Below, in pieces: positions 6,626 through 54,114 of a stretch of DNA of 64,000 bases. The notes below the pieces were generated by a model that made no database searches, had not been told where the DNA came from, and saw only the letters and a program-made list of their open reading frames with translations. The stretch lies in assembly GCA_021780225.1 (NCBI GenBank), contig JAJXZF010000016.1:1-64000 (forward strand), given 5' to 3'. Position numbers and translations under genes: made by a program. This DNA is from Deltaproteobacteria bacterium (GTDB lineage: Bacteria; Desulfobacterota; Binatia; Binatales; Binataceae). Position 1 is the stretch's first letter. Every line of letters starts with the position of its first letter.

Positions 6626-6772
6626 CCGGTCAACCGCTCCGGCCGATCGCCCTGCGGAATCTTTAGCTGCGGCCCGGCGTCTGACACAATGTCGAACGGC
6701 GCCGACGGCCGGTTGTACGAATTTGCCGGACGCGCCAGAATTGAAGATTCAAGCGGTTTAGCGAAGGCTTAA

Positions 6773-7780: not shown

Positions 7781-8745
7781 CTTCGACTGACGCATCGAGC
7801 GCCGCGGCGGCGGCCGGCCGTGCGCGATGCGTGATCTTCGCGTACCACGAGATGGGCTGGGCCTGCATGGCGGAACTGCTCGCGCTCGGCGCTCCGATCG
7901 CCGCGCTCTATACCCATCGCGACGCCGCCGGCGAGGAAATCTGGTGGCGTTCATGCGCGGAGCTGGCCGCAGCGCATCGAATACCGGCGTTTACGCCGGA
8001 ACGAATCGACGCCGCCGCGGCCGCGCACATCCGCGCGCTCGCGCCCGCCGTGATTTACTCCTTTTACTATCGCAATCTGATCGACGAGGCCGTGCTGCGG
8101 GTCGCGCCGCTGGGCGCATACAATATGCACGGCTCGATGCTGCCCAAATATCGCGGCCGCGCGCCCGTGAACTGGATGCTGGTCAACGGCGAGCGCGAGG
8201 CCGGCGTCACGCTGCATCATATGGTCGCACGCGCCGACGCCGGCGATATCGTTGCGCAGCGCGCGGTCGAAATCGGCGACGACGACACGGCGCTGACGCT
8301 CTATCGCAAGATTGTTCCCGTCGGCGCGGCCCTGATTCGCGAATTCCACCCCCTGATCGCCGCTGGAATCGCGCCGCGCCGGCCGCAGAATCTGGCCGCG
8401 GGCGGCTACTTCGGCCGGCGGCGTCCCGAAGACGGCCGCATCGATTGGAATTGGCCGGCGCGCCGCATCTTCAATCTGGTTCGCGCCGTTACGCATCCGT
8501 ATCCCGGCGCTTTCTGTTTTGCGGGCGGGCGCAAACTTTATATCTGGCGCGCGACGATCGCCCATGAAACGGAAGTACGCGGAACGCCCGGCGCGATGGT
8601 CGGCGAAAGCCCCGGCGGCGCGCTCGAAATCGCGGCTGGAACAGGCAGCGTGCTGGTTGCGAGCGTACAATTTGAAGGCGGCGCGGAAGACCGCGCCGCC
8701 GCGGTGCTGGCCGGCGCCGAATCGCACGCGCCGCGGCTGGAATAA
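7777..8745 (+). CDS. arnA: Methionyl-tRNA formyltransferase-fold enzyme, ArnA N-terminal-type UDP-Ara4N formyltransferase
   Basis: This 322-residue enzyme should transfer a formyl group from N10-formyl-tetrahydrofolate to the amino group of UDP-4-amino-4-deoxy-L-arabinose. The catalytic triad of the fold is present: N116 and H118 in 'NMHGSMLPKYRGRAPVNW' and D154 in 'ARADAGDIV', with the same 36-residue H-to-D spacing as in ArnA. In most Proteobacteria this domain is fused to the UDP-glucuronate decarboxylase; here it stands alone and the decarboxylase is the next gene. The ATG overlaps the arnC stop. The gene is not fmt: no tRNA-modification neighbours are present and the context is entirely arn. 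Confidence 0.83.
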   Translation: MTSTDASSAAAAAGRARCVIFAYHEMGWACMAELLALGAPIAALYTHRDAAGEEIWWRSCAELAAAHRIPAFTPERIDAAAAAHIRALAPAVIYSFYYRNLIDEAVLRVAPLGAYNMHGSMLPKYRGRAPVNWMLVNGEREAGVTLHHMVARADAGDIVAQRAVEIGDDDTALTLYRKIVPVGAALIREFHPLIAAGIAPRRPQNLAAGGYFGRRRPEDGRIDWNWPARRIFNLVRAVTHPYPGAFCFAGGRKLYIWRATIAHETEVRGTPGAMVGESPGGALEIAAGTGSVLVASVQFEGGAEDRAAAVLAGAESHAPRLE

Positions 8746-8757
8746 TCTGGAGGAATC

Positions 8758-9723
8758 ATGCGGGTTTTAATCACTGGCGGCGCGGGCTTTCTCGGCTCCC
8801 ATTTGTCGGACGCGTTTATCGCGCGCGGCGACGAAGTCTTCGTGCTCGACACCGGCGCGATCGCCAAGGTGCGCCATCTGCTCGATCAGCCGCGCTTCCA
8901 TTACGTGCACGACTCGATTTTCAACCTTGAGTTGATCGACAGTCTCGCCGCCAAATGCGACCTGATTTACCATCTTGCGGCGGTCGTCGGCGTCGAGCAT
9001 TACGTCGCCGATCCCTACGAGACGCTCAACGTCAACGTCAACGGCACGCAGAACGTGCTCAAGGCGGCCTACAAGTACGGCAAGAAGGTCGTTTTCAGTT
9101 CGACGTCCGAAGTTTACGGCCGCAATCCCAAGGTGCCGTGGAGCGAAGACGACGATCGCGTGCTCGGCGCCACGACGATCGATCGCTGGTGCTACTCGAC
9201 CTCGAAGGCGGTCGGCGAGCACTTCTGTTTCGCCTATCACAAGCTCGGCCTGCCGGTCGCCGTGGTGCGTTTTTTCAACGTGTACGGGCCGCGGCTGGAT
9301 CGGGTCGATGTCGGCCGGCTCTTCACGATCTTCATGGGCCAGTTGCTGCGCGGCGCCGATCTGACCGTAATCGGCGACGGTTCGCAGACGCGATGCTTCA
9401 CCTACGTCACCGACGCGGTCGCGGCGACGGTCGCCGCCGGTCTTAATCCCGCCGCCGACGGTCAGGCGATCAATATCGGCGTTGACGTCGAAACCTCGGT
9501 GCTTGAATTCGCCAAACTGATGCTCGAATTATTCGGGCCAACCGCTTCCAAAATCAAGTTCGTGACCCAGGAATCGGTGTACGGCAACAGCTACGAGGAT
9601 ATTCCGCGCCGCGTTCCGGACAACGCCAAGATGCGCAAGCTGCTCGGAATCGAGCCTAAAGTCTCGTTGCGCGAAGGCACGAAGATGTCGATGGACTGGT
9701 TCCGGCGCGAAGCCCGGGCGTGA
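8758..9723 (+). CDS. NAD-dependent epimerase/decarboxylase of the ArnA C-terminal / UDP-glucuronate decarboxylase class
   Basis: This extended short-chain dehydrogenase of 321 residues probably oxidises and decarboxylates UDP-glucuronate to UDP-4-keto-pentose, the first committed step to aminoarabinose. It has the Rossmann motif 'GGAGFLGSHL' at the N-terminus, the 'STSEVYG' stretch containing the Ser-Glu pair important in ArnA, the YxxxK pair in 'YSTSKAVGEH', and 'RFFNVYGPR'. A GGAGG site sits five bases before the ATG, and the gene lies 12 bases after the formyltransferase. A plain UDP-xylose synthase or another sugar epimerase is the main alternative; position in the arn locus decides for the ArnA-type role. 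Confidence 0.8.
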   Translation: MRVLITGGAGFLGSHLSDAFIARGDEVFVLDTGAIAKVRHLLDQPRFHYVHDSIFNLELIDSLAAKCDLIYHLAAVVGVEHYVADPYETLNVNVNGTQNVLKAAYKYGKKVVFSSTSEVYGRNPKVPWSEDDDRVLGATTIDRWCYSTSKAVGEHFCFAYHKLGLPVAVVRFFNVYGPRLDRVDVGRLFTIFMGQLLRGADLTVIGDGSQTRCFTYVTDAVAATVAAGLNPAADGQAINIGVDVETSVLEFAKLMLELFGPTASKIKFVTQESVYGNSYEDIPRRVPDNAKMRKLLGIEPKVSLREGTKMSMDWFRREARA

Positions 9724-9739
9724 CGGCGGCGCCGCCGCG

Positions 9740-10681
9740 ATGGCCGATCGAGCGATGCGCGTAGCGCTAAAGGTTGATGTCGACACCCATCAGGGACTCG
9801 GACAAGGCGTTCCGCGCCTGATGCGGGCGCTCGCCGCCGAAAGCGTGACGGCTACGTTTTTTATCGCGATGGGGCCGGACAATTCCGGACGGGCGATCGT
9901 GCGCGTGCTGAAAAATCCGGGGTTTATCGCCAAAATGCGCCGCACGGGCGCGGTCTCGATGTACGGCTGGCGGACGGTGCTCTCGGGCACGCTGCTGCCC
10001 GCCCGTCCGATCGCCCTTTCCTTTCCGCAAGTGATTCGCGCGCTCGACGCCTCCGGCTTCGAGCTCGGCGTGCATGGCTACGACCACGTCCGCTGGCAGG
10101 ACCGGCTCGACGCGCTTGGCGACGCCGGCGTCCGCGCTGAATTGACCGAAGCGTTCGAGGCGTTTCGCGCGGTCACGGGCCGGCCCGCACGCGCGTTCGC
10201 CGCGCCCGGATGGCGCACCTCGGCGGCGGCCTTGCGCGCGCTCGACGAAATGAAGCTCGCTTATCGCAGCGACACGCGGGGACGCGCGCCCTACCGATGC
10301 GCGATCGGCGGCGAAATTTTCGCCACGCCCGAAATTCCAACCACGTTGCCGACGCTGGACGAAGTGATGGGCGGGCCTGGCCTTGCCGATCGCGACGCGG
10401 TCGTGCGCTTTTATCTCGACCGCTTTCGCGACGGCGAGCTGAACGTCCATACGATTCACGCCGAGACCGAAGGGATGGGCGAACTCGACACGTTCCTCGC
10501 GATCGTGCGCGGCCTGAAAGGGCGCGGCGCGCGGTTCGTCCGCTTGCGCGACGCGGCCGCGGATTTCGACGCCGCGGCGCTGCCGGTATGCGAAGTCGCG
10601 CGCGCCACGCTTGACGGACGCGCTGGATGGATCTCCGCGCAGAGCGAACCTCAAACACCAGCAGCGGCTCTGTCCGCCTGA
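9740..10681 (+). CDS. arnD: ArnD-like polysaccharide deacetylase (undecaprenyl-P-Ara4FN deformylase)
   Basis: ArnD removes the formyl group from the undecaprenyl-linked sugar so that ArnT can use it. The 313-residue protein opens with 'VALKVDVDTHQGLGQGVPRL', closely matching ArnD. It continues with 'ATFFIAMGPDNSGRA', a 'SMYGWRTVLSGT' segment, the metal-binding 'ELGVHGYDH', and 'FAAPGWRTS'. These are NodB-fold motifs in the specific ArnD arrangement, which also supports the identities of the upstream genes. The start could be six codons later at the second methionine. No signal peptide is present, consistent with a peripheral cytoplasmic or membrane-associated enzyme. Confidence 0.88.
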   Translation: MADRAMRVALKVDVDTHQGLGQGVPRLMRALAAESVTATFFIAMGPDNSGRAIVRVLKNPGFIAKMRRTGAVSMYGWRTVLSGTLLPARPIALSFPQVIRALDASGFELGVHGYDHVRWQDRLDALGDAGVRAELTEAFEAFRAVTGRPARAFAAPGWRTSAAALRALDEMKLAYRSDTRGRAPYRCAIGGEIFATPEIPTTLPTLDEVMGGPGLADRDAVVRFYLDRFRDGELNVHTIHAETEGMGELDTFLAIVRGLKGRGARFVRLRDAAADFDAAALPVCEVARATLDGRAGWISAQSEPQTPAAALSA

Positions 10682-38571: not shown

Positions 38572-39420
38572 TCACTCGATCCAGTCGCGCGCGAAGTTCT
38601 CGATCTCGCTTTCATACCGATCCCGCGCCAGCGTCGCGTTCATCAGGACCAGACGATGCGCTCCCGCGGCCCGATAGTCCTCGATCGCACGATGCGGGTC
38701 GGGGCCTTGCGGATTATAAATCGTAATCTCCATCCGCGAAAAATCGCGCCCCGCCGCATCGCACATCCGGCGCAGCTTGTCCAATTCGCCGCGGACTTGA
38801 TCCGGGGTCAGGGCGATCGGCGCCCATCCATCGCCAAACGCGACCGTATTGCTGAGCGCGCGTTCGCCGCCCGCGCCGATATGGACCGGCGGATGCGGCT
38901 TTTGCACCGGCTTGGGATTGGACCGAATCGCCGGAAACCGCACATATTCGCCGGCGAACGACGCCGCTTCTTTCGTCCACAATTCTTTCATCGCGCGGAT
39001 GCATTCGCCCGTCATTTCCCATCGATGGCGAAACTTCACGCCCATCACGCGGCTCTCTTCGATCAGCCAGCCTGCGCCCACGCCGAAGATAAAACGTCCG
39101 CGCGAAATCAGATCGATCGTCGCGACCTCTTTCGCCAGCACCTTCGGATCGCGTTCGGGAACGAGGCACACTCCGGTGCCCAACCGTATCCGGTTGGTCG
39201 CCGCCGCGACCGCGCCGAGACTGACGAACGGGTCCATCATGTGCGCGTAAATGGGCGGAATCTTCCCGTCGCCGCGCGGCAGCCGCGTCTTTATTTCGAC
39301 CGGCATGACAGGATGCTCGGCCATGAAAAACGACTCGAAACCCGCCGCCTCGCAGGCGCGCGCGACCGTCACCACGTCGGCGGTCGCGGCGGTCGTCCAG
39401 GCCAGAATTCCGATTTTCAT
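38572..39420 (-). CDS. LLM-class F420-dependent oxidoreductase, paralogue 1
   Basis: This 282-residue luciferase-like TIM-barrel enzyme is of the Rv3093c-like probable F420 group. Markers are 'FESFFMAEHPVMPVEIKT', 'LGTGVCLVPERDPKVLAKE', 'FGVGAGWLIEESRVMG' and 'HPPVHIGAGGERALSN'. It is the last of three tandem paralogues sharing the motif order and the EHP-[VI]-[ML]-PV signature. F420 dependence is a family-based inference; FMN cannot be excluded. It starts 33 bases upstream of the fdhD start region, on the same strand. Confidence 0.9.
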   Translation of the reverse strand: MKIGILAWTTAATADVVTVARACEAAGFESFFMAEHPVMPVEIKTRLPRGDGKIPPIYAHMMDPFVSLGAVAAATNRIRLGTGVCLVPERDPKVLAKEVATIDLISRGRFIFGVGAGWLIEESRVMGVKFRHRWEMTGECIRAMKELWTKEAASFAGEYVRFPAIRSNPKPVQKPHPPVHIGAGGERALSNTVAFGDGWAPIALTPDQVRGELDKLRRMCDAAGRDFSRMEITIYNPQGPDPHRAIEDYRAAGAHRLVLMNATLARDRYESEIENFARDWIE

Positions 39421-39440
39421 GTACGCACTTCCTCGCGCCC

Positions 39441-40310
39441 TCAGCGAATCCAGGCTTTGGCGATCGACTCCAGTTCGCTTTCGTACTGACCCGCGCCCAG
39501 CTTTTCGGTGATCATGATCAACCGATGCGCCCCCGCCTCGCGATAGCGCGCGATCGTCGTCTGCGGATCGCCCTGCATCGGCGGCGCATAGACGGTGATT
39601 TCAAGCCGGCTGAAATCGCGCCCCGCATCGGCGCACAGCTTTTTCAGCTTCGCCAGCTCGGCGGCGAGCGCGTCCGGCGCGACGCCGAGCGGCGCCCAGC
39701 CGTCGCCGACCGCGACCGTATCATGCAGCGCGCGTTCCATGCTCGGTCCGACGCCGCCGGCGCCGATATGCACGGGCGGATGCGGCTTGCGGGCCGGCTT
39801 CGGATTCGCCCGCACGGGGGGAAACGCAACGTATTCGCCGGCGAATGACGCGGGTTCGGCCGTCCACAGCGCCTTCATCGCATTGATATATTCCCGCGTG
39901 ATCGCCCAGCGCTGTTTGAAATCGACGCCCATGATCTCGCTCTCGTCGCGCAGCCATCCGGCGCCGATTCCGAAAATGAACCGCCCGCCGCAATAGAAAT
40001 CGAGCGTCGCCACCGCCTTGGCGGTCACGATCGGATTGCGCTCCGGCACCAGGCAGATGCCCGTGCCGAGGCCGATTTTGCTGGTCGCCCCGGCGGCCAG
40101 CGCCAGCCCCACAAAGGGATCCGGCATGTTCGCGTATGGTTCGGGAATCCGGCCGTCGGGAGAAAGCGGATACTTCGTCTTGTGATTGACGGGAAGGATT
40201 GGATGCTCCGGCAAATAGAACGACTCGAAGCCCAGCGCTTCGCACTTGCGGGCGACCGCGGCGGGATTCGCGGTGGCGGGACCCACAAAGGCCAATAATC
40301 CGATTTTCAT
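39441..40310 (-). CDS. LLM-class F420-dependent oxidoreductase, paralogue 2
   Basis: The second tandem LLM enzyme has 289 residues, beginning 'MKIGLLAFVGPATANPAAVA'. It shares 'FESFYLPEHPILPVNHKT', 'LGTGICLVPERNPIVTAK', 'FGIGAGWLRDESEIMG' and 'HPPVHIGAGG' with its neighbours and is closest to paralogue 1. The gap to paralogue 1 is only 20 bases, so both are probably on one mRNA. An AT-rich 65-bp stretch separates it from paralogue 3 and may contain a promoter. Confidence 0.9.
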   Translation of the reverse strand: MKIGLLAFVGPATANPAAVARKCEALGFESFYLPEHPILPVNHKTKYPLSPDGRIPEPYANMPDPFVGLALAAGATSKIGLGTGICLVPERNPIVTAKAVATLDFYCGGRFIFGIGAGWLRDESEIMGVDFKQRWAITREYINAMKALWTAEPASFAGEYVAFPPVRANPKPARKPHPPVHIGAGGVGPSMERALHDTVAVGDGWAPLGVAPDALAAELAKLKKLCADAGRDFSRLEITVYAPPMQGDPQTTIARYREAGAHRLIMITEKLGAGQYESELESIAKAWIR

Positions 40311-40375
40311 TGCGCGCCCCTCTGAATTACTTTCAACTTGCTATTTAAATTGATATTCAACGCTCGTGTTAAATA

Positions 40376-41230
40376 TTAACTGATATACAGCGAAGCGATC
40401 TGAGCGAGCCGCTCGCGATAGTCTTTTGGACCGAGCGTCCCCAGCGCCAGCACGAAACGGCCGGCGCCGGCCTCCGCGAACCGCCCCAATTCGGCCTGCA
40501 CCGCCGCGCGATCGCCCGCGATTCCGCCCATCACCGTGATATCGAGCGCGCCGAAGTCGCGCCCGGCCGCGCGGCATTCCTCGCGCAGCGTCGCCAGGTC
40601 GCGCTTCATCTCGTCGGGCGTGACGCGGTTCGGAAACCATCCGTCGCCCCACTTCGCGACCCGCTTGAGCGCGTTGCGGTCGCGGCTGCCAAGCAGCACC
40701 GGCGGGCCGTTGGGACGAACGGGTTTCGGATAGGAGCGAACCGGCGGAAATTTTACGTACCTGCCGTCGAAGGAGGCCTCGGGATGGCTCCACAGCGCGC
40801 GCATCGCGGCCACATACTCGGCCGTCTGCGTCCATCGCCGCGGGAAATCAACGCCCAGCAGCTCCGACTCTTCGCGCAGCCATCCCGCGCCGATTCCGTA
40901 AATCACCCGTCCCCCGGAAAAACTGTCGAGCGTCGCGATCTGTTTGGCCGCGACGATCGGGTTGTGCTCGGGCACGAGCGTGATTCCGGTCGCGAGCTTG
41001 AGCCGTTTGGTCGTCGCCGCGGCCATCGCCAGGCATACGAACTGGTCGCTCATGTGGCTGTAAACGTCGGGAATCGGCCCGCCCTGCGGAAACGGCGTCT
41101 TGGGATTCACGGGCATCACCGGATGCTCCGGGACCCACAGCGAATCGAAGCCAAGCTCCTCCGCGGCCGGCGCGAATTCGGCCGGCCGCGCGGTCGCCTC
41201 ATGAAACACCATCAACAGTCCGATCTTCAT
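40376..41230 (-). CDS. LLM-class F420-dependent oxidoreductase, paralogue 3
   Basis: This 284-residue enzyme is the most diverged of the three: 'FDSLWVPEHPVMPVNPKT', 'LATGITLVPEHNPIVAAKQ' and 'YGIGAGWLREESELLG' are kept, but the C-terminal half reads 'GPPVLLGSRDRNALKRVA' instead of the HIGAGG form. The ATG matches the start of the paralogues; an in-frame upstream codon would add nine basic residues. Such clusters often degrade or modify several related substrates, or reflect expansion of F420 enzymes in the genome. Confidence 0.9.
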   Translation of the reverse strand: MKIGLLMVFHEATARPAEFAPAAEELGFDSLWVPEHPVMPVNPKTPFPQGGPIPDVYSHMSDQFVCLAMAAATTKRLKLATGITLVPEHNPIVAAKQIATLDSFSGGRVIYGIGAGWLREESELLGVDFPRRWTQTAEYVAAMRALWSHPEASFDGRYVKFPPVRSYPKPVRPNGPPVLLGSRDRNALKRVAKWGDGWFPNRVTPDEMKRDLATLREECRAAGRDFGALDITVMGGIAGDRAAVQAELGRFAEAGAGRFVLALGTLGPKDYRERLAQIASLYIS

Positions 41231-41388
41231 CGACAAGCGCCTCCATCCGCGCCGCACGCGGCGCGGCGGCTAACCGACTTGTCGCAAAATCGCGCGCCGA
41301 TTTCCAGCGCCGCGCCGATTGCGGATCGAATCGCGAACGGCGCCCGCGCGCGCCGGGGATTTGGACCGGCGTATCCTGCGCGCGAGCG

Positions 41389-43572: not shown

Positions 43573-43971
43573 TTAAGCGAGAAAAATTTCGCGCACCAGA
43601 TTGGTGTCGTTGTATTCGCGCCCTTCGGCGATAAGGTCGCCGTCGAAGCGCAGGAAGAAGCAGTAGCGCTGACAGTAACGGCGACCGTTCATCGCGATCG
43701 AATCGGCTTTCGCCGTCGCGGCGACGAGCGGTCCGTCGCACATCACGTGCTCAAGCGCTAAATTCAGTCCGTGCGGAAAGAGGCGGCGCAGAGTGGCGGC
43801 TTCGGTCGCGGCAAAGTTGTCGCGCCCGGCAATCGGGGGAAATTCGCCGAGTCCCGAGACTATCTCGAAACGAAAATCGATCGTGACCAACTCCGCGAAT
43901 ACCGCCGGATCGGCGTGATTGAAATTTTCCAGAAAACGAATCGCGCGAGCCTTCTGTTCCGCCTGCGTCAT
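43573..43971 (-). CDS. SnoaL-like / NTF2-fold small protein
   Basis: This 132-residue product has the compact cone fold signature of SnoaL and related proteins: a helical N-terminus ('AIRFLENFNHADPAVFAELV'), 'FPPIAGRDNFAATEAATLRRLFP' and a beta-rich C-terminus ('RRYCQRYCFFLRFDGDLIAEGREYNDTNLV'). Members are isomerases, hydrolases or have no known activity. The ATG has GAGG nine bases upstream. It sits at the far end of the candidate headgroup cluster and beside the MITE, so its relation to either is unclear. Confidence 0.8.
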   Translation of the reverse strand: MTQAEQKARAIRFLENFNHADPAVFAELVTIDFRFEIVSGLGEFPPIAGRDNFAATEAATLRRLFPHGLNLALEHVMCDGPLVAATAKADSIAMNGRRYCQRYCFFLRFDGDLIAEGREYNDTNLVREIFLA

Positions 43972-44101
43972 CGGCAATGCCTCGAATCAACCAGAATGCC
44001 GGGAAAAACGTCCGCCGCCTTCGCAATCAAAAAGCGTTCGCGCCGGGTTTCATCCATGATGCCGAATTGAACGCGGCGATCGCGCCGCCCGCATTCCGGC
44101 G

Positions 44102-44578
44102 CTACTTCCAGCCGAAGAAATCGGCGGCGTAAATGAACCGGCCGACGCCGCCGGCTTCCGCGGCCATCGCGTCGAGATCCTGATCGCCAATCATGGTCGA
44201 GCCGGCCAGATCGACGCCGTGCGTCGCCGCCAGTTCCGCGATCATACCGCCTTTCGGCTTTCGGCATGCGCAGCGATCGGCGTCGTCGTGCGGGCAGATC
44301 ATCCATCCGGTGAGAATTCCGTCGAGCTGGCGGTCGAGCTCGGCGATCGCGGCTTCAACCTGCGCCAGCGAGAAGCGCCCGCGCTTCACTCCGGCCTGAT
44401 TCGTGACCACGAAAATCAGATGGTCCCGCATCGGCAAAAGCGTCTCGCGCACGTTCGGCAGCAGGCGAATAGCGATATTGCCGTGCGCGTCGATCGGCAG
44501 TTGACGGCTTTCGTCCATCGCCGCGAGCGTACCCGCCAAATCGCAAAACAGAGCGATATTTCCGGCGTCCGGCTCCAT
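44102..44578 (-). CDS. GmhB-like HAD phosphatase with altered DxD motif
   Basis: GmhB removes the C7 phosphate from heptose bisphosphates. This 158-residue protein has the HAD-IIIA layout: nucleophile D13, motif II 'VVTNQAGVKRG', the GmhB-type zinc ligands C95, H97, C103 and C105, and 'GDQDLDAM' as the last acidic motif. However, the general acid/base Asp two residues after D13 is Ala ('CDLAGTL'), encoded by GCG. Hydrolysis should be impaired, so it may act as a phosphotransferase, work slowly or bind a ligand. It begins three bases after the aminotransferase stop, which implies a shared pathway. Confidence 0.82.
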   Translation of the reverse strand: MEPDAGNIALFCDLAGTLAAMDESRQLPIDAHGNIAIRLLPNVRETLLPMRDHLIFVVTNQAGVKRGRFSLAQVEAAIAELDRQLDGILTGWMICPHDDADRCACRKPKGGMIAELAATHGVDLAGSTMIGDQDLDAMAAEAGGVGRFIYAADFFGWK

Positions 44579-44581
44579 CTT

Positions 44582-45991
44582 TCAATCCGCCTCGCGCCAG
44601 TTGAGATGGTCGCGCACGTAAGCAAATACCTCATCGAGAATCGCGACGCCGGCCGCGGCCTGCCGCTCCGTGATCACCAGCGGCGGATTGATCCGGACGC
44701 GCGGGAAATAACTCATCATCAGAAGCCCGCGCTTGAGCGCTTCGGTGAAGATCGTCTCCATCACGCCGCGGCCAAGCGGCTGTTTCGAATCACGGTCGCG
44801 CACGAGATCAAGCCCGATCATCAGGCCGCGGCCGCGCACGTCGCCGAGAAATTCATATTTCTCTTGCAGCGCGAGCAGCCGCTCCAGCATCAGCGCGCCG
44901 ACCCGGCGCGAATTTTCCACCAGATGATCGGTCTGGATCGTCTTGATCGTCTCGGCAAGCGCCGCGGCCGCGAGCGGATTTCCGCCGTAGCTCGAAGACG
45001 ACGCGCTGGGTTTGCTGAACGGCTCGGCCTGCGACAGCCGCTCGCCCATCAGCACGCCCGAAATCGGAAACCCCGAGCCCATCCCTTTGCCAACGGTGAC
45101 GATTTCAGGCTCGACGCCGCTATGCTCCACGCCCCACCATTTTCCGGTGCGGCCAAAGCCGGTGATCATCTCGTCGGCGATCAGAAGCGCGTCGAAGCGT
45201 CGCGCCATCTCCCGCACCGCGGGCATGAAGTCGTCGGGCGGAATCACGTTGCCGGCGGTGCCCTGCATCGGTTCGACGACGATCGCGGCGACCGCGCCGG
45301 CGCTCGAATTGCGCACCTGCTTTTCGCCAAACTCGACGCAATACATGCCGCATTCGGGATGCTTCAATTTGAATGGGCAGCGATAACAATCGGCATAAGG
45401 AATCGAATAACGGCCGCCTTCGAGCGGCCCGTAACCCTGCTTTGATTCGTCGCCAATCAGCCCCATCACGCCGGCGGTCTTGCCGTGAAAACCGCCCCAA
45501 AACGCCACCACCTCGTGCTTCCTGGTGGCCGACCGCGCCAGTCTGAGCGCGGCTTCAACCGCCTCGGCGCCGCCGCTGTAGAGATGTGCGCGCCTGAGGC
45601 CGGCCGGCGCGACTTCGGACAGCAGCCGAAACGCTTCCGCGCGCTCTTTGGTCGCGAACGTGCCGACCATCAGCCGAGCGGCTTGACGCGCGATCGCGCC
45701 GGCGAGTCCCGGATGGCCGTGGCCGAGACTGGCGACCGCCACTCCGGCAAAAAAATCGAGATAAACGTTGCCGTCGGCGTCGGTCAGCGTGGCGCCGGCG
45801 CCGTGGTCGAAAGCAACTCCGGCCAGCAATGAAATTCGCTGGCGTCCCGGCGCGATATGGCTCTGCTCGTCCGCGAAGATCGCACGCGACTTCGGTCCCG
45901 GTATCGCAGTCGTGATTTTCGGCAGATCGGCGGTGGCCGCGCGCCGCGCGGTTACTTGGGCGGTCCTCATCTCCTCATCATCCGAATCCAC
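44582..45991 (-). CDS. Class III PLP-dependent aminotransferase
   Basis: This 469-residue enzyme transfers amino groups to a ketone or aldehyde, typically at a terminal carbon. It has 'YLDFFAGVAVASLGHGHP', the PLP-contacting 'SGGAEAVEAALRLAR', 'ADEMITGFGRTGKWW' with the cofactor-binding Asp, the Schiff-base lysine in 'VGKGMGSGFPISG' and the four-cysteine insert C-YR-C-(8)-C-(3)-C seen in several members of this class. The GTG start is used; an ATG seven codons later follows GAGGAG too closely to be certain. It lies between the ATP-grasp and GmhB-like genes in a minus-strand series. Confidence 0.9.
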   Translation of the reverse strand: MDSDDEEMRTAQVTARRAATADLPKITTAIPGPKSRAIFADEQSHIAPGRQRISLLAGVAFDHGAGATLTDADGNVYLDFFAGVAVASLGHGHPGLAGAIARQAARLMVGTFATKERAEAFRLLSEVAPAGLRRAHLYSGGAEAVEAALRLARSATRKHEVVAFWGGFHGKTAGVMGLIGDESKQGYGPLEGGRYSIPYADCYRCPFKLKHPECGMYCVEFGEKQVRNSSAGAVAAIVVEPMQGTAGNVIPPDDFMPAVREMARRFDALLIADEMITGFGRTGKWWGVEHSGVEPEIVTVGKGMGSGFPISGVLMGERLSQAEPFSKPSASSSSYGGNPLAAAALAETIKTIQTDHLVENSRRVGALMLERLLALQEKYEFLGDVRGRGLMIGLDLVRDRDSKQPLGRGVMETIFTEALKRGLLMMSYFPRVRINPPLVITERQAAAGVAILDEVFAYVRDHLNWREAD

Positions 45992-46153
45992 TGTTCAGAT
46001 TCGCCGGCGCACGATAGGCCGGCGGCTTGATAGGACTGGCGCGACGATTTAGCCAAGTCAAGACAATTGCATCGGACGCATCGGCGCTCTTCAGCGGATT
46101 TGGTCCGATGCAAGTTTAAGAAACCGGATTGGAGTTACAAACGTCTTTAATTA

Positions 46154-46996
46154 TCAGACACTGGCGCCGACGGTCAGACCCTGCTGACGCACCAATCGCA
46201 TCGCGCGGCGGGCGATCGCCTTGGCGGCCTCGGCGCGAACCCGGCTGAAACTCGGCCAATCGTTGAAATCTATAATCGAAAAGTCCGCGCCTTTGACCAC
46301 CGCGTCGCCGCCCCAAACCTCGAGTCCGAGCGCCTCAGCCGCCTCTGTCGCGGCGTGACCCAAGGCGCGCTTGGCGCCGTCGGTAACGTAACCGCCGGCT
46401 TCGGACACCGCGGCGAAGTATTCGCCACCGACCCCGTAAAATTTCACCACGTCGCCGATCGCCTCCTGCTGCACGTAGACCAGCGCCACGTTGCGCCGCG
46501 CGAACCGCAGCAGCGTGGCTTCGAGTTGTTCGAGGCCCTCGACCCGTTGCACGTCGTGCGGACCAAGGGCGTGAAGATCGCCTCGTTTGACGTACATCGG
46601 CGCGCTCAGGTCCAATGCGCGCAACGGTTTCAAATCAAACGGCCGCGCGGTGCGCACAACCGCGCCTTCGGGCGTCGGAACGCCGGCGTGATTCAAGCCG
46701 GCGCCGAGCAGGTCGCGATAGCAGTTGCGAATGGCGAGCGCGGAATTGATCGCCAATGCGCCGCTTTTCTCAGCCGCGGCAAGCCGGCTCAACGCGCGCT
46801 CGCTCTGGCACATCGCAAGCACCAGCGCAGGCTCGGAAAGCCCCTCGGAGATGAAACGCGCGGCGTCGATCGCGATAATCCGCATCCCGGCGGCGCGCAA
46901 TTCGGCCAGCGACGCGTCGATTATCGCCGCGTCGGCTTCGACTTTGCCGGGCGAAAACTCCGGCTCCCGATAGATCCCCACCGCATGAATAGCCAT
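46154..46996 (-). CDS. ATP-grasp family protein of unknown substrate
   Basis: ATP-grasp enzymes join a carboxylate to an amine or thiol, or phosphorylate it, through an acyl-phosphate. The 280 residues include a central substrate/ATP lobe ('APMYVKRGDLHALG', 'LVYVQQEAIGDVVKFYGVG') and the Mg2+-binding C-terminus 'SIIDFNDWPSFSRVRAEAAKAI', where D and N follow the ITPK/RimK-type pattern. I do not recognise a named subfamily. It lies 37 bases downstream of the nucleotidyltransferase gene and may use its product, or form an amide on the aminated moiety. Confidence 0.7.
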   Translation of the reverse strand: MAIHAVGIYREPEFSPGKVEADAAIIDASLAELRAAGMRIIAIDAARFISEGLSEPALVLAMCQSERALSRLAAAEKSGALAINSALAIRNCYRDLLGAGLNHAGVPTPEGAVVRTARPFDLKPLRALDLSAPMYVKRGDLHALGPHDVQRVEGLEQLEATLLRFARRNVALVYVQQEAIGDVVKFYGVGGEYFAAVSEAGGYVTDGAKRALGHAATEAAEALGLEVWGGDAVVKGADFSIIDFNDWPSFSRVRAEAAKAIARRAMRLVRQQGLTVGASV

Positions 46997-47033
46997 TGGT
47001 CGCTACTCCGCCCGCCGCGCCGCGGATGCGCGA

Positions 47034-47765
47034 TCAGAGCGCGTTGCTCCGATCTTTCAGCATCGCCCGCGCCGCGTCCAAATCCTCCGCTTGATCGACG
47101 TCGATCACGTCCGCGACCGGGAACGCCCTGAACTTCATCCCGGACTCGATAAGAAGCGCCAGATAGCGCCTCATCGCGTCGAGACCGCGCTCGCGCGCCG
47201 CCTTCGCGAAGGAAAAAATCCGTGTGTTGAAAAGATAAACGCCGGCCGTTACCCAAGCGGCCCGTGTTTCCCCCAGCGCCTCGATTATTCCATCCGGCGC
47301 GACTTGAGCGAAGAGCGGACGCTCGTCGCCGCGCCATTTCACCACCGCAAGAGCGCCATCGAAGGATGGCGCCGCGCCCGCCTCGGTAAACGATCGCGCA
47401 CTCTCCGCGAAGCGCACGAACTCGTCCGGCCGCATCACCGCATCGACCGTGGTCATCACGAACCATCCGGGCGGAATAACCTCGCCCAACGCCAGCAATG
47501 AGGCCAGCGAGTTGGGCGTATCGCGCACCATCAAGCTCAGGTCCTTCGGCAATTTGATTTGGCGCGCGCGGATTATCGCATCGGTCTCGTGGTTGACGAT
47601 CGCGTGGATCGGTTTCGCGCCAACCGCGGCGAGCATCCGCGCCTGACGCAGCAGCAGCGGCTCGCCGCCGACCTCGACGACCGGCTTGGGCAGTCCGCCG
47701 GCGCCGCTACGCAACCGGTCGCCGCGGCCGGCCGCAATTATCGCTCCGCTGATTCGCGACGCCAT
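47034..47765 (-). CDS. MobA-like / sugar-phosphate nucleotidyltransferase
   Basis: This 243-residue GT-A-fold enzyme should couple a phosphate ester to NTP, giving an NDP- or CDP-activated group. The N-terminus has 'SGAIIAAGRGDRLRSGAGGLPKPVVEVGG', the loop that binds the nucleotide; 'VMTTVDAVM' contains the metal-binding Asp, and 'VIDVDQAEDL' near the C-terminus the second. Its first 28 bases overlap the 3' end of the HAD gene, implying coupling. The base and substrate are unknown. Confidence 0.85.
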   Translation of the reverse strand: MASRISGAIIAAGRGDRLRSGAGGLPKPVVEVGGEPLLLRQARMLAAVGAKPIHAIVNHETDAIIRARQIKLPKDLSLMVRDTPNSLASLLALGEVIPPGWFVMTTVDAVMRPDEFVRFAESARSFTEAGAAPSFDGALAVVKWRGDERPLFAQVAPDGIIEALGETRAAWVTAGVYLFNTRIFSFAKAARERGLDAMRRYLALLIESGMKFRAFPVADVIDVDQAEDLDAARAMLKDRSNAL

Positions 47766-48496
47766 TGCAGATTCTCTAACTCCGCAAGTCCCCGAATCGT
47801 GAAATCGACCTCGGATGCGGGATGCGCGTCATCGCTGGGGTTCGCGCGATCGATCCCCGGCATCCAGATCGTGGTCATGCCGAGCCGCCGCGCCGGCGCG
47901 CAATCTTTGTCGATCGAATCGCCGACCATCGCGACGGATTGCGCGGAGACGCCGATTTTTTCGAGCGCGTAGGCGAAGATTCCCGCGTCGGGCTTGAAAC
48001 TCCCGACCTGCGACGAATCCGCCACGACGGCGAAAAACCGATCGAGTCCGGCTTCAGCCAGAACGCGATCGAGATTGCCATAAAAATTCGACACCACGCC
48101 CATCCGGTAACGCGGCGCAAGCACGGCAAGAATCGCGCGGCTCTCAGCCATTCCGGCTCGGGATTCGGCGACAAATCCAGCCACAATACGCGCCATCGCA
48201 TCGGATAATCTCCCCGTTCGGCGCGCGTTGGCAATTATGTCACGGGTAACTGAATCGCCCTCTTCACCAAGACAGGCGACTTGCGCGTTCACGAGATAAT
48301 CGACGATTTCGGCCAGGCCAAAGCGACGCAGATCCGCACTGGCGCGATAGGCCAGGCGGGTCGCATGGGAGAACCCACGGTCAAGCTGAGCGCGAGAGAG
48401 ATTTAGGCTGGCCGCATGATAATGCGCGAGAAAACGGTCGAGCCAATGGCGCGGGAAATCAAGCGTGCCGCCATAATCGAACAAGATCGCGCACAT
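47738..48496 (-). CDS. HAD-superfamily hydrolase (subfamily IA-like)
   Basis: This 252-residue phosphatase candidate has motif I 'LFDYGGTLDFP' (D-x-G-G-T, nucleophile Asp followed by Gly where many HADs have Asp), motif II 'GVVSNFYGNLD' and motif III/IV 'MVGDSIDKDCAPARRLGM'. An alpha-helical cap lies between residues 20 and 100. It is the first gene of the minus-strand headgroup series and overlaps the nucleotidyltransferase gene by 28 bases. It diverges from the CDP-alcohol phosphotransferase gene, sharing 234 bp that probably hold both promoters. Confidence 0.85.
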   Translation of the reverse strand: MCAILFDYGGTLDFPRHWLDRFLAHYHAASLNLSRAQLDRGFSHATRLAYRASADLRRFGLAEIVDYLVNAQVACLGEEGDSVTRDIIANARRTGRLSDAMARIVAGFVAESRAGMAESRAILAVLAPRYRMGVVSNFYGNLDRVLAEAGLDRFFAVVADSSQVGSFKPDAGIFAYALEKIGVSAQSVAMVGDSIDKDCAPARRLGMTTIWMPGIDRANPSDDAHPASEVDFTIRGLAELENLQWRRESAER

Positions 48497-48730
48497 CGTG
48501 CGTTGAATTTTACCAGCCCGATCGGCGGGTCTCGACGGCCTGCCGCGATAATTTCAACCAGCCGTCATCAACCTTGTGGAGCAAACCGCCCAAAGGCTCG
48601 CGCTTGCGATTGCAATATGCTTCGATTGTTCACCATGGTGATGGGAATCGGGCCGTGCGCGATGACCCAAATGTTTCGATCTGATTACATTGACTCCGCT
48701 GCCTGTTTCGTTTAAAAACCTAGTTTTAAT

Positions 48731-49915
48731 TTGGCTACTTTGATAGAAACAGCGCTCATTAGCGTCCCATCGCGAGCGTCCGACATGATTTTCGGACGCC
48801 CGCTTCTCGAACGACTGCTCTTACTCTGTACGCGCGAAGGCGTCCGCCGTTTCATTATCGAAACGCACGACGCTCCGCCAAGCGAAATTAATCGTGCGCT
48901 TGGTTCGTTCGCCGGCAAGCCGGAAATCACGCTGGTTGAAGATTTCCGTCAGATAATCCCGCGCGGCGACGGGCCTTTAGCCGCAACTCCGGCCATCGCA
49001 TTCTGCGGAAATCTGGTGCTGGCGCGGTCGCAATTGCGCCGCGCGCTCGACGCGTACGCCGAGGCTCCCGGGCAACGGATGCATGTTGACAGCACGGACG
49101 CCGACCGGGGCGGCGCGATCGAACTCGGGCCGATCGCGACTCTGCTGAGCGATCCGGCCAGCGGCGCCCGCTCGATCCTGACCGAACGGGGCTTTCTGCC
49201 TTTCGCGCTTAATGGACGTCCAGAGGATCGGCAGGAAGGGGAATTGCGGCTTGCACGGTCGGTGCGGGCCGAGAGCGTTTCCACCGACGCGCCGCTTGCC
49301 CAAATGATCGATCGGCGGCTGTCATGGCGAATCAGCTACCGGCTCGCGCGGCTGGGCGTAACGCCAAATCTCGTGACGCTCGCGAATACCGCATTGGGCG
49401 TCTTTTGCGCGATTTTGTTCGCTTCGCCGGGATATTGGAGTCATCTGGCCGGCGGAATCCTGTTTCTCGTTTCAATCACGATCGACGGGGTGGACGGCGA
49501 ATTGGCGCGGCTCAGGATGGTCGAATCGGAAGCGGGCGCGCGCCTCGACGTATTTACCGATAATTTGGTGCATGTCGCCATCTTTATTGGACTGCTGGTC
49601 GGATGTTATCGTGTCAGCCATGATCGCGCGTATTTTTGGCTGCTGGGCCTGCTTCTGAGCGGCTTTGGGGTATGCGCGATCGCGGTCAACCGGGCGCTGG
49701 GCTCCGCCGGCGACGAAACCGAACGGTGGATCCGGACGATCGAACAAGCGACGGGACGGGATTTCGCCTACCTGTTGGTGGTTCTGGCGATTTTTGGGAA
49801 ACTGTCGTGGTTCGCATGGGGCGCCGCCTTCGGCGTGTGGATTTTCGCCGGCGCGCTTTGGTTGCTGACGAACCGGCGCGGGCGGAGCCGCGCGAGAGCC
49901 GATACGGCCGGTTAG
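48731..49915 (+). CDS. Nucleotidyltransferase-like domain fused to CDP-alcohol phosphatidyltransferase
   Basis: This 394-residue protein has two parts. The C-terminal half (about 195-375) is a multi-helix CDP-alcohol phosphotransferase whose signature DG(x2)AR(x8)G(x3)D(x3)D is perfect, from 'DGELAR' to 'GARLDVFTD'. The N-terminal 190 residues resemble a degenerate sugar nucleotidyltransferase ('FGRPLLERLLLLCTREGV'), lacking the GxGxR loop. The order matches the IPCT/DIPP-synthase fusion of hyperthermophiles, which condenses CDP-inositol with an alcohol. Here it probably displaces CMP from an activated headgroup at the membrane. The TTG start lacks a ribosome site; an ATG 18 codons in is the alternative. 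Confidence 0.87.
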   Translation: MATLIETALISVPSRASDMIFGRPLLERLLLLCTREGVRRFIIETHDAPPSEINRALGSFAGKPEITLVEDFRQIIPRGDGPLAATPAIAFCGNLVLARSQLRRALDAYAEAPGQRMHVDSTDADRGGAIELGPIATLLSDPASGARSILTERGFLPFALNGRPEDRQEGELRLARSVRAESVSTDAPLAQMIDRRLSWRISYRLARLGVTPNLVTLANTALGVFCAILFASPGYWSHLAGGILFLVSITIDGVDGELARLRMVESEAGARLDVFTDNLVHVAIFIGLLVGCYRVSHDRAYFWLLGLLLSGFGVCAIAVNRALGSAGDETERWIRTIEQATGRDFAYLLVVLAIFGKLSWFAWGAAFGVWIFAGALWLLTNRRGRSRARADTAG

Positions 49916-49937
49916 GAGTTGGAAGTAAGGAGGATTT

Positions 49938-51263
49938 GTGAAGAAACCGCGATTGCTGTTGATACAACCCACCACCATCCATCTCGACGGCACGCCGCAC
50001 AAGACCCGGTGGCGCTTGATCATGGGTCTGATGATTCCGCTGATCGCGGGTTTCACGCCTTCCGATTTCGACGTGACGCTTTGCGACGAACGCCTGGAAG
50101 ATCTCGATTTCAATGGCGGATGGGATCTCGTCGGCATGACGACGACGATCGGCGCGTCGCTGCGCGCCTACCAGCTTGCCGACGAATTCCGCCGCCGCGG
50201 CGTACCCGTCGTGATGGGCGGCTTTCACGCCACGTTGCAGACTGAAGAGGCGCTCAAGCACGCCGACGCGGTGGTGCAGGGCGAGGCCGATCTGGTGTGG
50301 GAGCCGCTGCTGCGCGATTGGCAGGACGGCAAGCTCAAACAGATCTACAAATCCGACAAGCTCCACGATCTGAAAAAGCTGCCGCGGCCGCGCCACGAAC
50401 TGCTCAAGCTGAATCGCTACCTGTTCAAGGCCGTTCCGGTGCAGGCGAGCCGCGGATGCCCCTACCGGTGCTCGTTCTGCGAGATTCCGGTCTTCTACGG
50501 CGGCAGCTATCGTACCCGGCCGATCGAGGACATCGTCGAAGAAATCAAGCAGGTGATCGCGGTCACGGGCTTCCGCCGCTTCCAGTTTATCGACGACCAA
50601 ATCACGGGCAAACACAAGTTCGCGAAGGAACTTTTCAAGGCGCTGGCCCCGCTCAACATCCGTTTTTCGTGTCTCTGGACGGTCAATTCCAACCACGACG
50701 AGGAATTGCTCGAACTGGCCGCGAAAGCCGGCGTATTTCACGTCAACATCGGCGTCGAATCGATCAGCCAGGACAGCCTGCTGTCGATGAACAAGATTCA
50801 GAATCACGCCAAGGATTACAAAAAACTGCTCAAGCGGCTCGAACACCACGGCATCTATTATTCGCTGAATTTCCTGTTCGGCCTCGAAGACGACCATCCG
50901 CGGATCTTCGAGGACACGCTCAAGTTCCTGCACGAGGTCAAGGCGCCCGAGGCGTTTTTCAACACGGTCACGCCGCGCAAGGGCACGCCGATGCGCACGC
51001 AGCTTGAAGCCGAGGACCGCGTGCTGATCCCGGACGCCGACATGTACACGAACAACTTCCGCTGCATGTTCGTGCCCAAAAACCTTTCGCCGCAGCAGGT
51101 CGAAGAGGGCGTTTGGAAATGCACGAAGGAGTTCTACTCCTTCAAGTCGATGTTCAAGCGGCTGCTGATGCCGCCCGGAAAATTCACCTGGCAGGGGCTG
51201 ACCGAGAACATGCTGTTCTGGTACGGCGCCAAGCGCCAGATCGACCCCGTCGACTATTATTGA
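49938..51263 (+). CDS. B12-dependent radical SAM enzyme (class B type)
   Basis: This 441-residue enzyme has an N-terminal cobalamin-binding domain (about 1-140, 'PVVMGGFHATLQTEEAL') and a radical SAM barrel with C174, C178 and C181 in 'SRGCPYRCSFC'. 'NIGVESISQDSLLSMNKI' follows as the SAM-binding strand. Class B relatives methylate unactivated carbons or phosphinate, or rearrange skeletons. The GTG start has AAGGAGG six bases upstream. It follows the CDP-alcohol phosphotransferase by 22 bases and is likely co-transcribed, suggesting it modifies the same lipid or headgroup. Confidence 0.9.
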   Translation: MKKPRLLLIQPTTIHLDGTPHKTRWRLIMGLMIPLIAGFTPSDFDVTLCDERLEDLDFNGGWDLVGMTTTIGASLRAYQLADEFRRRGVPVVMGGFHATLQTEEALKHADAVVQGEADLVWEPLLRDWQDGKLKQIYKSDKLHDLKKLPRPRHELLKLNRYLFKAVPVQASRGCPYRCSFCEIPVFYGGSYRTRPIEDIVEEIKQVIAVTGFRRFQFIDDQITGKHKFAKELFKALAPLNIRFSCLWTVNSNHDEELLELAAKAGVFHVNIGVESISQDSLLSMNKIQNHAKDYKKLLKRLEHHGIYYSLNFLFGLEDDHPRIFEDTLKFLHEVKAPEAFFNTVTPRKGTPMRTQLEAEDRVLIPDADMYTNNFRCMFVPKNLSPQQVEEGVWKCTKEFYSFKSMFKRLLMPPGKFTWQGLTENMLFWYGAKRQIDPVDYY

Positions 51264-52426: not shown

Positions 52427-53284
52427 TCAGGCGTGCGGAACCAGCACCAGGTTGTCGATCAAGCGGGTCGCGCCGACCCGCGCCGCGATCGCGACCACCA
52501 CCGGCCGCTCGACTCGGTCGATCGGCTTGAGCGTTTCGGAATCCACCGCCTCGACGTATTCGATGTCAACGCCGGGCGTTCGTTCCAGCACGTGGCGGGC
52601 GGCGCAAGCCAGTTGCGCCGCGCTGCGCGTCCCCTCGGAGAGGCATCGGCCAGCCGCTTCGAGCGCGCGGCTGAGCGCCAGCGCCCGTTCGCGTTCCACC
52701 GGCGACAGATAGGCGTTGCGCGAACTCATCGCCAGCCCGTCGCGCTCGCGCACGGTTGGAACCGGCACGATTTCGAGATCGAAATTCAAATCGGCGACCA
52801 TCCGCTGAATCGCGCGCAATTGCTGAAAATCTTTCTCCCCGAATAAAGCGGCGTGCGGCTTGACGATATTGAACAATTTTGCGACGACGGTCGTCACGCC
52901 GCGAAAATGGCCCGGCCGATGGGCGCCGCAGAGTCCTTGCGTGATCTCGGTCGCTTCAACCCAGGTTTGCGAACCCGGCGGATACATCGCTTCCGGCGCG
53001 GGAGCGAAGAGCACATCGACCGGAACGCCGCGCATCATCTCGCAATCGCGCTCGAAATTGCGCGGATAGCGGCTGAAATCCTCGTTCGGTCCGAACTGCG
53101 TCGGATTGACGAACAGCGAGCTGGCGAGGCGCGAAGCGCGTTTGCGGCCTTCGCGCATCAGCGTCAGATGGCCCTCATGCAGGAAGCCCATCGTGGGCAC
53201 GAACGCGATCGTCTCGCCGCGCCTGCGCGCCGCTTCGCTCCAGCGCTGCATCGCCGCCGGCGTTTCGATAATTTCCATGGCCAT
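52427..53284 (-). CDS. panC: Pantothenate synthetase
   Basis: PanC condenses pantoate and beta-alanine using ATP. The 285-residue protein shows 'FVPTMGFLHEGHLTLM' with the HxGH motif, 'VNPTQFGPNEDFSRYPR', 'LFGEKDFQQL' and the KMSKS-like 'GLAMSSRNAYL'. Its ATG overlaps the panB stop as TGATG, preceded by AAGGGAG, so the two are translationally coupled. A second in-frame ATG lies two codons later. Reading further upstream enters panB in another frame and is spurious. Confidence 0.96.
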   Translation of the reverse strand: MAMEIIETPAAMQRWSEAARRRGETIAFVPTMGFLHEGHLTLMREGRKRASRLASSLFVNPTQFGPNEDFSRYPRNFERDCEMMRGVPVDVLFAPAPEAMYPPGSQTWVEATEITQGLCGAHRPGHFRGVTTVVAKLFNIVKPHAALFGEKDFQQLRAIQRMVADLNFDLEIVPVPTVRERDGLAMSSRNAYLSPVERERALALSRALEAAGRCLSEGTRSAAQLACAARHVLERTPGVDIEYVEAVDSETLKPIDRVERPVVVAIAARVGATRLIDNLVLVPHA

Positions 53285-54114
53285 CAAGCTCCCTTGAGAT
53301 GAAAGGTATGCTCTTCGGTGGGAAACGCGCGGTCGCGAACGTCGCGGATGTACGCGGTGGCGGCGTCGGTCGCCTCGCGCCACAGGTTCGCGTAAGCCTT
53401 CGCGAAGCGCGGCCGAAAGCCGTCGGTCAGGCCGAGCACGTCGTGCATCACCAGCACCTGGCCGTCGCACTCGGCGCCAGCGCCGATGCCGATCGTCGGA
53501 ATCGCAACGCGGGAAGTGATTTCGCGCGCAAGCTCGGCCGGGATTCCCTCCAACACAACGGCGAACGCGCCCGCCTGCTCGACCGCGAGCGCGTCTTCGA
53601 GCAGCCGCTCGCGGCATCCGGGACCGCTGCCGGACTGGCGGCCCTGCACGCGATGGCCGCCCATCCGATGGATTGACTGGGGCGTCAGGCCGATATGCCC
53701 CATCACGGGAATGTCAACGTCGACCAGCCGGCGGATGGTGTCCGCCATGGTCACGCCGCCTTCGAGCTTGACCGCTTCGGCGCCGCCTTCCTTGACCAGC
53801 CGTCCGGCGTTGCGCAGCGCCTGTTCGACGCTCACCTGGTAGCTCATAAAAGGCAAATCGCCAACCAGCAGCGCGCGTTCGCGGGCGCGCGCGACGAGCT
53901 TCAGGTGGTAGAGCACGTCGGCCATCGTGACCGGCAAGGTGCTGTCGGCGCCTTGGACGACCATGCCAAGGCTGTCGCCGACCAGCAGAATATCGACGCC
54001 GGCGCGGTCGAAGATGCGAGCGAAAGGGAAGTCGTAAGCCGTCAGCATCGCGATCGGCGTCCGTTCGGCCTTCATCTTGGCAAGATCGGTAACGCGAATT
54101 TTTTGCTTGGCCAT
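53284..54114 (-). CDS. panB: 3-methyl-2-oxobutanoate hydroxymethyltransferase
   Basis: PanB adds a one-carbon unit from methylene-tetrahydrofolate to ketoisovalerate, the first pantothenate step. The 276 residues include '[28 protein letters not shown]' with the metal-binding Asp, '[14 protein letters not shown]', '[15 protein letters not shown]' and '[22 protein letters not shown]' with the catalytic Glu region. It is first in the pan run, and 320 bp of non-coding DNA precede it. Confidence 0.96.

Follow-up and report, generated by a model that had tools for sequence, protein, structure and literature searches.

The stretch of DNA analysed here, called the window, is 64,000 nucleotides long (contig JAJXZF010000016.1 of assembly GCA_021780225.1). 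The interval under study, 43573-51263, carries a candidate gene cluster for an aminated polar headgroup of membrane lipids. Coordinates are from the list of open reading frames (ORFs). A preliminary description had named seven genes of this interval, and all seven lie at the positions it gave, as confirmed by ORFs with Pfam or NCBIfam matches and, for one gene, by the fold of a predicted model.

The minus strand encodes a HAD hydrolase (47738..48496; Pfam Hydrolase/HAD_2) with a D-x-G-G-T motif that has Gly, not Asp, at position +2; a MobA/IPCT-like nucleotidyltransferase (47034..47765; NTP_transf_3); an ATP-grasp enzyme (46154..46996), recognised by the fold of its predicted model; a class III aminotransferase (44582..45991; PF00202, 320 bits); and a GmhB-like HAD-IIIA protein (44102..44578; NCBIfam), which is a lineage-specific accessory. 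The plus strand encodes a nucleotidyltransferase-like domain (about 1-163) fused to a CDP-alcohol phosphotransferase (48731..49915; PF01066), called the fusion protein below, and a B12-binding radical SAM enzyme (49938..51263; PF04055, PF02310). The two transcription units had been said to overlap or abut. They are instead separated by a divergent intergenic region of 234 bases (48497..48730 by ORF coordinates, between the gene ends at 48496 and 48731), and overlap on the minus strand is limited to 28 bases shared by the HAD and nucleotidyltransferase genes.

Conservation of the core and its closest relatives

The core of HAD, nucleotidyltransferase, ATP-grasp and class III aminotransferase genes, called the cassette below, is kept across distant families. 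The phylum was sampled with 148 genomes, the window's own included, and 11 of these, again counting the window's own, have the ATP-grasp gene. The aminotransferase gene adjoins one ATP-grasp copy in all 11. The HAD and nucleotidyltransferase genes also adjoin in 10; in the eleventh, the contig ends inside the gene. The other ten genomes show 28 to 94% identity to the window's four core proteins. Also near the cassette in relatives are genes for a Gfo/Idh oxidoreductase, myo-inositol-phosphate synthase (MIPS), HpnH, an LPG_synthase_TM protein, an MMPL transporter and an outer-membrane efflux protein. In genome G035 another ATP-grasp copy lies within a Gfo/Idh-MIPS-ATP-grasp run (L024:3379-6735), apart from the main cassette of that genome in L022. 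Here and below, loci are given by L numbers, genomes by G numbers and contigs of the window's genome by C numbers.

With the ATP-grasp alignment as query, species genomes yielded at least 561 relatives; the best 80 of the 561, mostly from Bacteroidota, were examined as loci. A gene is counted as absent from a neighbourhood if it falls below the search thresholds within the contig piece examined. The idea that all seven genes travel together fails in part. In the loci examined, the GmhB-like HAD is confined to the window's lineage, and orthologues of the B12 enzyme are restricted to this lineage and L039. Since these two genes are mostly lineage-specific, the reading of all seven genes as one unit was set aside. 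Besides the window's genome, the lineage includes G121 and the genomes of L030-L033. All five of these have the GmhB-like gene, and all five have the pair of fusion and B12 genes, which lies away from the cassette in one of them.

A tree of 89 ATP-grasp proteins largely separates the aminated from the other clusters. Of its two sides about the midpoint, one has 22 rows with an aminotransferase and 3 unknown ones; the other has 61 without an aminotransferase on the contig piece examined and 3 with it (L056, L063, L104). Support for the split is 99/92. L029 and L036 were left out of the tree because L018 and L019 already represent their genomes, and rows shorter than 200 residues were left out too.

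The Bacteroidota loci, within the best 80 of 561, usually have the order nucleotidyltransferase, ATP-grasp, CDP-alcohol transferase, often LPG_synthase_TM, and HAD, with MIPS before or after the cluster in many of them. They are equated here, by gene order and names rather than by that paper's sequences, with a putative alternative inositol-lipid cluster of Bacteroides vulgatus and Prevotella, whose function is unconfirmed (Heaver et al. 2022, PMC9246714). According to the available text of that paper, inositol dihydroceramide is produced by B. vulgatus and P. veroralis although both lack BT_1522/23/25 of B. thetaiotaomicron, CDP-inositol is a proposed intermediate, and a lysylphosphatidylglycerol-synthase-like gene neighbours the alternative cluster. 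The B. vulgatus locus tags given there are RS13095 (nucleotidyltransferase), RS13105 (transferase) and RS13115 (HAD). Each of the two gaps between these tags could take one gene, at the places where the ATP-grasp and LPG_synthase_TM genes stand in the loci examined here; the genes may be the same.

The claim that no named pathway has this combination of genes therefore needs to be corrected. As far as the available text of PMC9246714 goes, the HAD, nucleotidyltransferase, ATP-grasp and CDP-alcohol transferase genes and MIPS match its cluster, the aminotransferase excepted. Profiles seeded from the window recover the related nucleotidyltransferase and HAD in the Bacteroidota loci, with the DxGG motif in 86/86 HADs, and a CDP-alcohol transferase is nearby in both, although the Bacteroidota motif differs (DSADGQLAR). 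The two also differ in that MIPS is not in the window's neighbourhood, although it is near the cassette in the relatives L020 and L021. No aminotransferase or Gfo/Idh was found in the Bacteroidota loci, and the terms "ATP-grasp" and "aminotransferase" are absent from the available text of the paper. Window-type clusters thus add an aminotransferase and Gfo/Idh to an already described putative inositol-lipid gene set.

Another comparable system is the ceramide diphosphoglycerate pathway of Caulobacter (CpgD, PMC12275187), where a cytidine triphosphate (CTP)-dependent phosphoglycerate cytidylyltransferase serves a lipid headgroup. This pathway uses glycerate rather than inositol, and no amination is seen in the available text. 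The open-licence papers searched contained no title describing an amino-inositol phospho-lipid or -hopanoid.

Predicted roles of the enzymes

HAD phosphatases usually carry Asp at +2. In the main HAD this position is Gly in 86/86 aligned cluster HADs (two genomes are counted twice), and in the GmhB-like HAD it is Ala (4), Gly (1) or Val (1) in 6/6 genomes, never Asp. The proposed role of the main HAD is the removal of phosphate from an inositol phosphate. In the nucleotidyltransferase, the positions of AxAGxGxR and Lys27 are kept in 83-84 of the 84 rows with letters there. It is a candidate CTP:(amino)inositol-phosphate cytidylyltransferase, and its match to the inositol-1-phosphate cytidylyltransferase model NF041135 is weak (30 of 580 bits). 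The aminotransferase keeps its pyridoxal phosphate residues, Asp273 and Lys302, in 25/25 rows with letters there, one further row being gapped, and may act as an inosose aminotransferase.

Neither Pfam nor NCBIfam matches the ATP-grasp protein, and a search of its sequence against solved structures gave nothing useful. Its predicted model (mean predicted local distance difference test score, pLDDT, 91.6) nevertheless has an ATP-grasp fold, which bears out the label given to it earlier. The best match of the model is RimK (Z 22.3, 254 residues, root-mean-square deviation (rmsd) 3.1), and the inositol kinases PPIP5K2 and ITPK1 match with Z 19.3 and Z 19.1. Residues invariant across 11 sequences include K137, R138, K185, D231, D243 and N245. 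The proposed role of the protein is that of an (amino)inositol kinase.

The model of the fusion protein (mean pLDDT 83.1) matches archaeal IPCT-DIPPS (4mnd) across both domains, with Z 25.1 over 342 residues and rmsd 3.9. In both proteins a nucleotidyltransferase-like domain is fused to a CDP-alcohol transferase. They differ in that the fusion's N-terminal domain shows no nucleotide-binding signature that could be read from its sequence, that the window has a separate nucleotidyltransferase gene, and that identity is 16%. The N-terminal domain also resembles the cytidylyltransferase of PntC-AEPT (Z 16.4). The CDP-alcohol motif DGxDGx2ARx8Gx3Dx3D is invariant in 14 sequences. The fusion protein is the proposed headgroup transferase.

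Identity of the B12 enzyme to its orthologues is 88-98% in the 5 other lineage genomes and 42% in L039. We infer that it is an accessory, methylating or rearranging the lipid or its head. Assignment as HpnJ or HpnR was rejected: the enzyme scores 78 bits for HpnJ (cut-off 578) and 55 bits for HpnR (cut-off 650), and the genome carries a separate HpnJ. Some related cassettes have a different B12 radical SAM subfamily nearby (L037:7057-8568, L038:7088-8548, L041:7072-8547, L049:14507-16003), whose members share about 25% identity with the window's enzyme. The genes panC and panB lie near the B12 gene at 52427-54114, and L030, L032 and L033 have the same neighbours.

Links to inositol and to hopanoid genes

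The usual route of cyclitol amination is oxidation, then transamination. The window's genome has a Gfo/Idh gene on contig C9 and a MIPS gene on contig C51, away from the cluster. At E <1e-60, a line drawn after the gap was seen in a search run at E 1e-30, the Gfo/Idh subfamily is found in 11/11 cassette genomes and 2/137 others (Fisher p=6e-15), 8 of the 11 matching by construction since the alignment used, A4, holds their sequences. Both non-cassette genomes belong to one genus that has a cassette-bearing member, and 9 more genomes match A4 only between about 1e-34 and 6e-31. The best named NCBIfam model for these proteins is inositol 2-dehydrogenase (IolG, TIGR04380), at 71-74 bits with a cut-off of 355.

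In L020, L021, L024, L034, L056, L063 and L104, MIPS is within the cassette or next to it. Its co-occurrence was rejected as proof of inositol: it is found in 86/148 genomes of the phylum, 9/11 with the cassette and 77/137 others (p=0.12). IMPase (PF00459) says little, being present in 8/9 of the cassette genomes searched and in every one of the 14 controls. Together, MIPS and a weakly IolG-like dehydrogenase among the partners point to inositol as the starting alcohol, which refines the "small alcohol" of the preliminary description.

The Gfo/Idh gene is also the link to the synthesis of hopanoids, which are sterol-like lipids of bacteria. On C9 the order is Gfo/Idh, TetR-like, HpnH, polyprenyl-synthase-like, zinc-dehydrogenase-like, SHC, and Dxr- and HpnC/D-like genes, where HpnH, SHC and Gfo/Idh were named by model scan and the remaining names were read from sequence. 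SHC and HpnH are both over cut-off in the window's genome. Gfo/Idh precedes HpnH, about 0.8-1 kb apart, in 5/5 covered lineage genomes (the window's included), and one gene separates the two in all three genomes inspected. In the sixth lineage genome the contig ends before this neighbourhood is covered. The window cluster itself is not physically linked to hpn genes; the linked partner is Gfo/Idh alone. Elsewhere, HpnH adjoins the HAD gene in the cassette run of G026 (L019/L036, one genome) and likewise, by profile, in L035, and in G105 an LPG_synthase_TM gene lies beside SHC and HpnH (L126).

Co-occurrence gives a similar picture. HpnH is over cut-off in 9/11 cassette genomes and 16/137 others (p=1.2e-6), and SHC in 9/11 and 15/137 (p=8e-7). 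The two cassette genomes missing these genes are G041 (85% complete) and G078 (62% complete). By family, the 7 families with the cassette all fall within the 15/64 families that have HpnH (p=1e-5).

Outside the phylum sample, SHC was tested in 34 of the 80 loci. It is over cut-off in 10/15 aminotransferase-bearing genomes, where it is also present once more as a fragment, and in 0/17 controls without the aminotransferase; the controls were hand-chosen and are nearly all Bacteroidota, so that the comparison is confounded by phylum, and in one of them (L042) the contig ends soon after the ATP-grasp gene. Of the 17 loci chosen as aminotransferase-type, 15 show the gene. The other two, L041 (where the contig ends) and L108, are both SHC-positive. 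A cultured organism, Desulfoferrobacter suflitae DRH4, has the cassette (L038) together with SHC. A rule that amination implies a hopanoid is broken by the aminotransferase-bearing clusters L037, L056, L063 and L104, which come without SHC.

The transferase motif was compared as well. In the main aminotransferase clade most clusters have a CDP-alcohol motif of the canonical form. Of the CDP-alcohol matches in loci that lack the aminotransferase and are not known to have SHC, 59/61 are of the DSADGQLAR type. The Bacteroidota-type motif is present in L063 and L104. A rule that the motif type follows SHC fails for the Verrucomicrobiota loci L060 and L083, which are SHC-positive with a DSADGQLAR-type enzyme beside the cassette, for L037 (canonical fusion, no SHC), and for L019 and L108 (SHC-positive, third motif type). 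The motif types are not sharp, since the enzymes of L056 and L060 start with DSADGQLAR but keep the canonical Gx3Dx3D end.

The known hopanoid pathway (HpnH, SHC, HpnI/J/K, HpnO) resembles this system in that the window's genome has HpnH, SHC and HpnJ, with Gfo/Idh in that locus. It differs in that the available text of a 2025 survey (PMC12583986) has no CDP-based head attachment and no occurrence of "inositol". HpnJ is over cut-off in 15/21 chosen genomes, the window's included (13/19 with the cassette and 2/2 without), so that cyclitol-ether hopanoids are probably made too. In the window's genome HpnJ lies on contig C3 (L140:5224-11191), where its downstream side has a glycosyltransferase-like gene and its upstream side LPG_synthase_TM-like and ArnT-like genes, these three being judged by sequence.

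The window has some other features. A SnoaL-like gene at 43573-43977, inside the interval, had not been named earlier; among the loci examined it occurs in one other genome only (that of L018 and L029). Judged in the same way as the neighbours of HpnJ, three tandem luciferase-like (F420-type) oxidoreductase genes lie on the minus strand at 38572-41257, and a run at 4796-10681 resembles the 4-amino-4-deoxy-L-arabinose (Ara4N)/lipid A modification set (ArnT-, ArnC-, ArnA- and ArnD-like).

A proposed pathway and its alternatives

From the observed gene content, conservation, co-occurrence and predicted folds, we infer each reaction of the following model. The cluster would make CDP-activated aminated inositol and transfer amino-inositol phosphate to a membrane lipid, the acceptor being left open. 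This is a reasonably likely explanation, held at somewhat better than even confidence. At the level of prediction, it supports the earlier suggestion that a polar headgroup is aminated, phosphorylated and nucleotide-activated and is then joined by a CDP-alcohol transferase.

In this model, MIPS, encoded elsewhere in the genome, would make inositol phosphate, and a phosphatase (the HAD or an IMPase) would release free inositol. The Gfo/Idh enzyme from the hopanoid locus would then oxidise inositol to inosose, which the class III aminotransferase would convert to inosamine. The ATP-grasp enzyme would phosphorylate inosamine, and the nucleotidyltransferase would turn inosamine phosphate into CDP-inosamine. 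Finally, the membrane fusion protein would move inosamine phosphate onto a lipid alcohol, while the B12 enzyme and the GmhB-like HAD may serve in tailoring. A free-inositol step, in which the HAD removes phosphate and the ATP-grasp enzyme replaces it, would explain why both genes are found with and without amination.

Several observations weigh against this model or its link to hopanoids. Both HADs are without the +2 Asp usual in HAD phosphatases, and amide ligases (RimK, Z 22) match the ATP-grasp fold better than inositol kinases do (Z 19). MIPS is so common in the phylum that its co-occurrence alone is not significant, and the window's Gfo/Idh, at 71.4 of 355 bits for IolG, ties with a generic oxidoreductase model. 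There are 16 HpnH genomes without the cassette, and the four aminated clusters without SHC were named above. The presence of HpnJ in the window's genome means that its hopanoid genes may serve to make ordinary complex hopanoids.

The alternative of greatest weight concerns the acceptor alone, and so overlaps with the model above. The same aminated inositol headgroup may be placed on an ordinary lipid, diacylglycerol or another, and the hopanoid link would then reflect shared ecology or regulation rather than chemistry. The clusters L037, L056, L063 and L104, aminated without SHC, argue for it, as do the Bacteroidota-type motif of L063 and L104 and the production of inositol dihydroceramide by B. 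vulgatus and P. veroralis, which both lack the B. thetaiotaomicron genes (PMC9246714, available text). However, Gfo/Idh is within the hopanoid locus in all covered lineage genomes, HpnH adjoins the cassette in L019, and most SHC-bearing cassette relatives have a fusion transferase with the canonical motif. We regard this alternative as a real possibility, at less than even confidence. Alternatively, the aminotransferase may be HpnO-like and aminate ribosylhopane, with the remaining genes making an ordinary inositol lipid. The association of the cassette with hopanoid genes would fit, and HpnO, an aminotransferase-family protein, is hard to distinguish from others (PMC12583986, available text). 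Yet the aminotransferase adjoins the ATP-grasp gene in 11/11 genomes, accompanies Gfo/Idh, and occurs in genomes showing no SHC (L056, L063, L104), which makes this unlikely. No HpnO model is among the 25 listed of 69 NCBIfam matches for the window's proteins.

Two further explanations change the product itself. The headgroup could derive from another amino alcohol, such as an aminoethylphosphonate-like compound, with MIPS there for other reasons. The PntC-AEPT-like N-terminal domain of the fusion and the commonness of MIPS (86/148) are in keeping with this, but the presence of MIPS in or beside the cassette in seven loci and the weak best match of Gfo/Idh to inositol dehydrogenase make it distinctly unlikely, although no search aimed at PepM, of the phosphonate route, was made. 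A soluble product, with CDP-(amino)inositol joined to inositol phosphate as IPCT-DIPPS does in di-inositol phosphate solutes, is suggested by the top structural match of the fusion protein. We consider it very unlikely, given that the relatives' partners are lipid-type membrane proteins (LPG_synthase_TM/HpnL-like and MMPL/HpnN-like) and that the Bacteroidota relatives match a lipid cluster in the available text of PMC9246714.

Returning to a membrane lipid with an aminated inositol headgroup, the acceptor in the window's lineage is possibly a hopanoid polyol, the leading candidate, with diacylglycerol as the main alternative. The corresponding product, a phosphodiester-linked amino-inositol hopanoid in which the CDP-alcohol phosphotransferase would put inosamine phosphate on a hopanoid polyol, is a tentative and rather doubtful proposal.

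The cluster provides a concrete gene set for a putative aminated version of bacterial inositol lipids, tied to hopanoid producers. It also suggests what the ATP-grasp gene may do in the uncharacterised inositol-lipid cluster found in gut Bacteroidota. Should the acceptor be a hopanoid, a class of zwitterionic phospho-hopanoids may have gone unnoticed in lipid and biomarker surveys.

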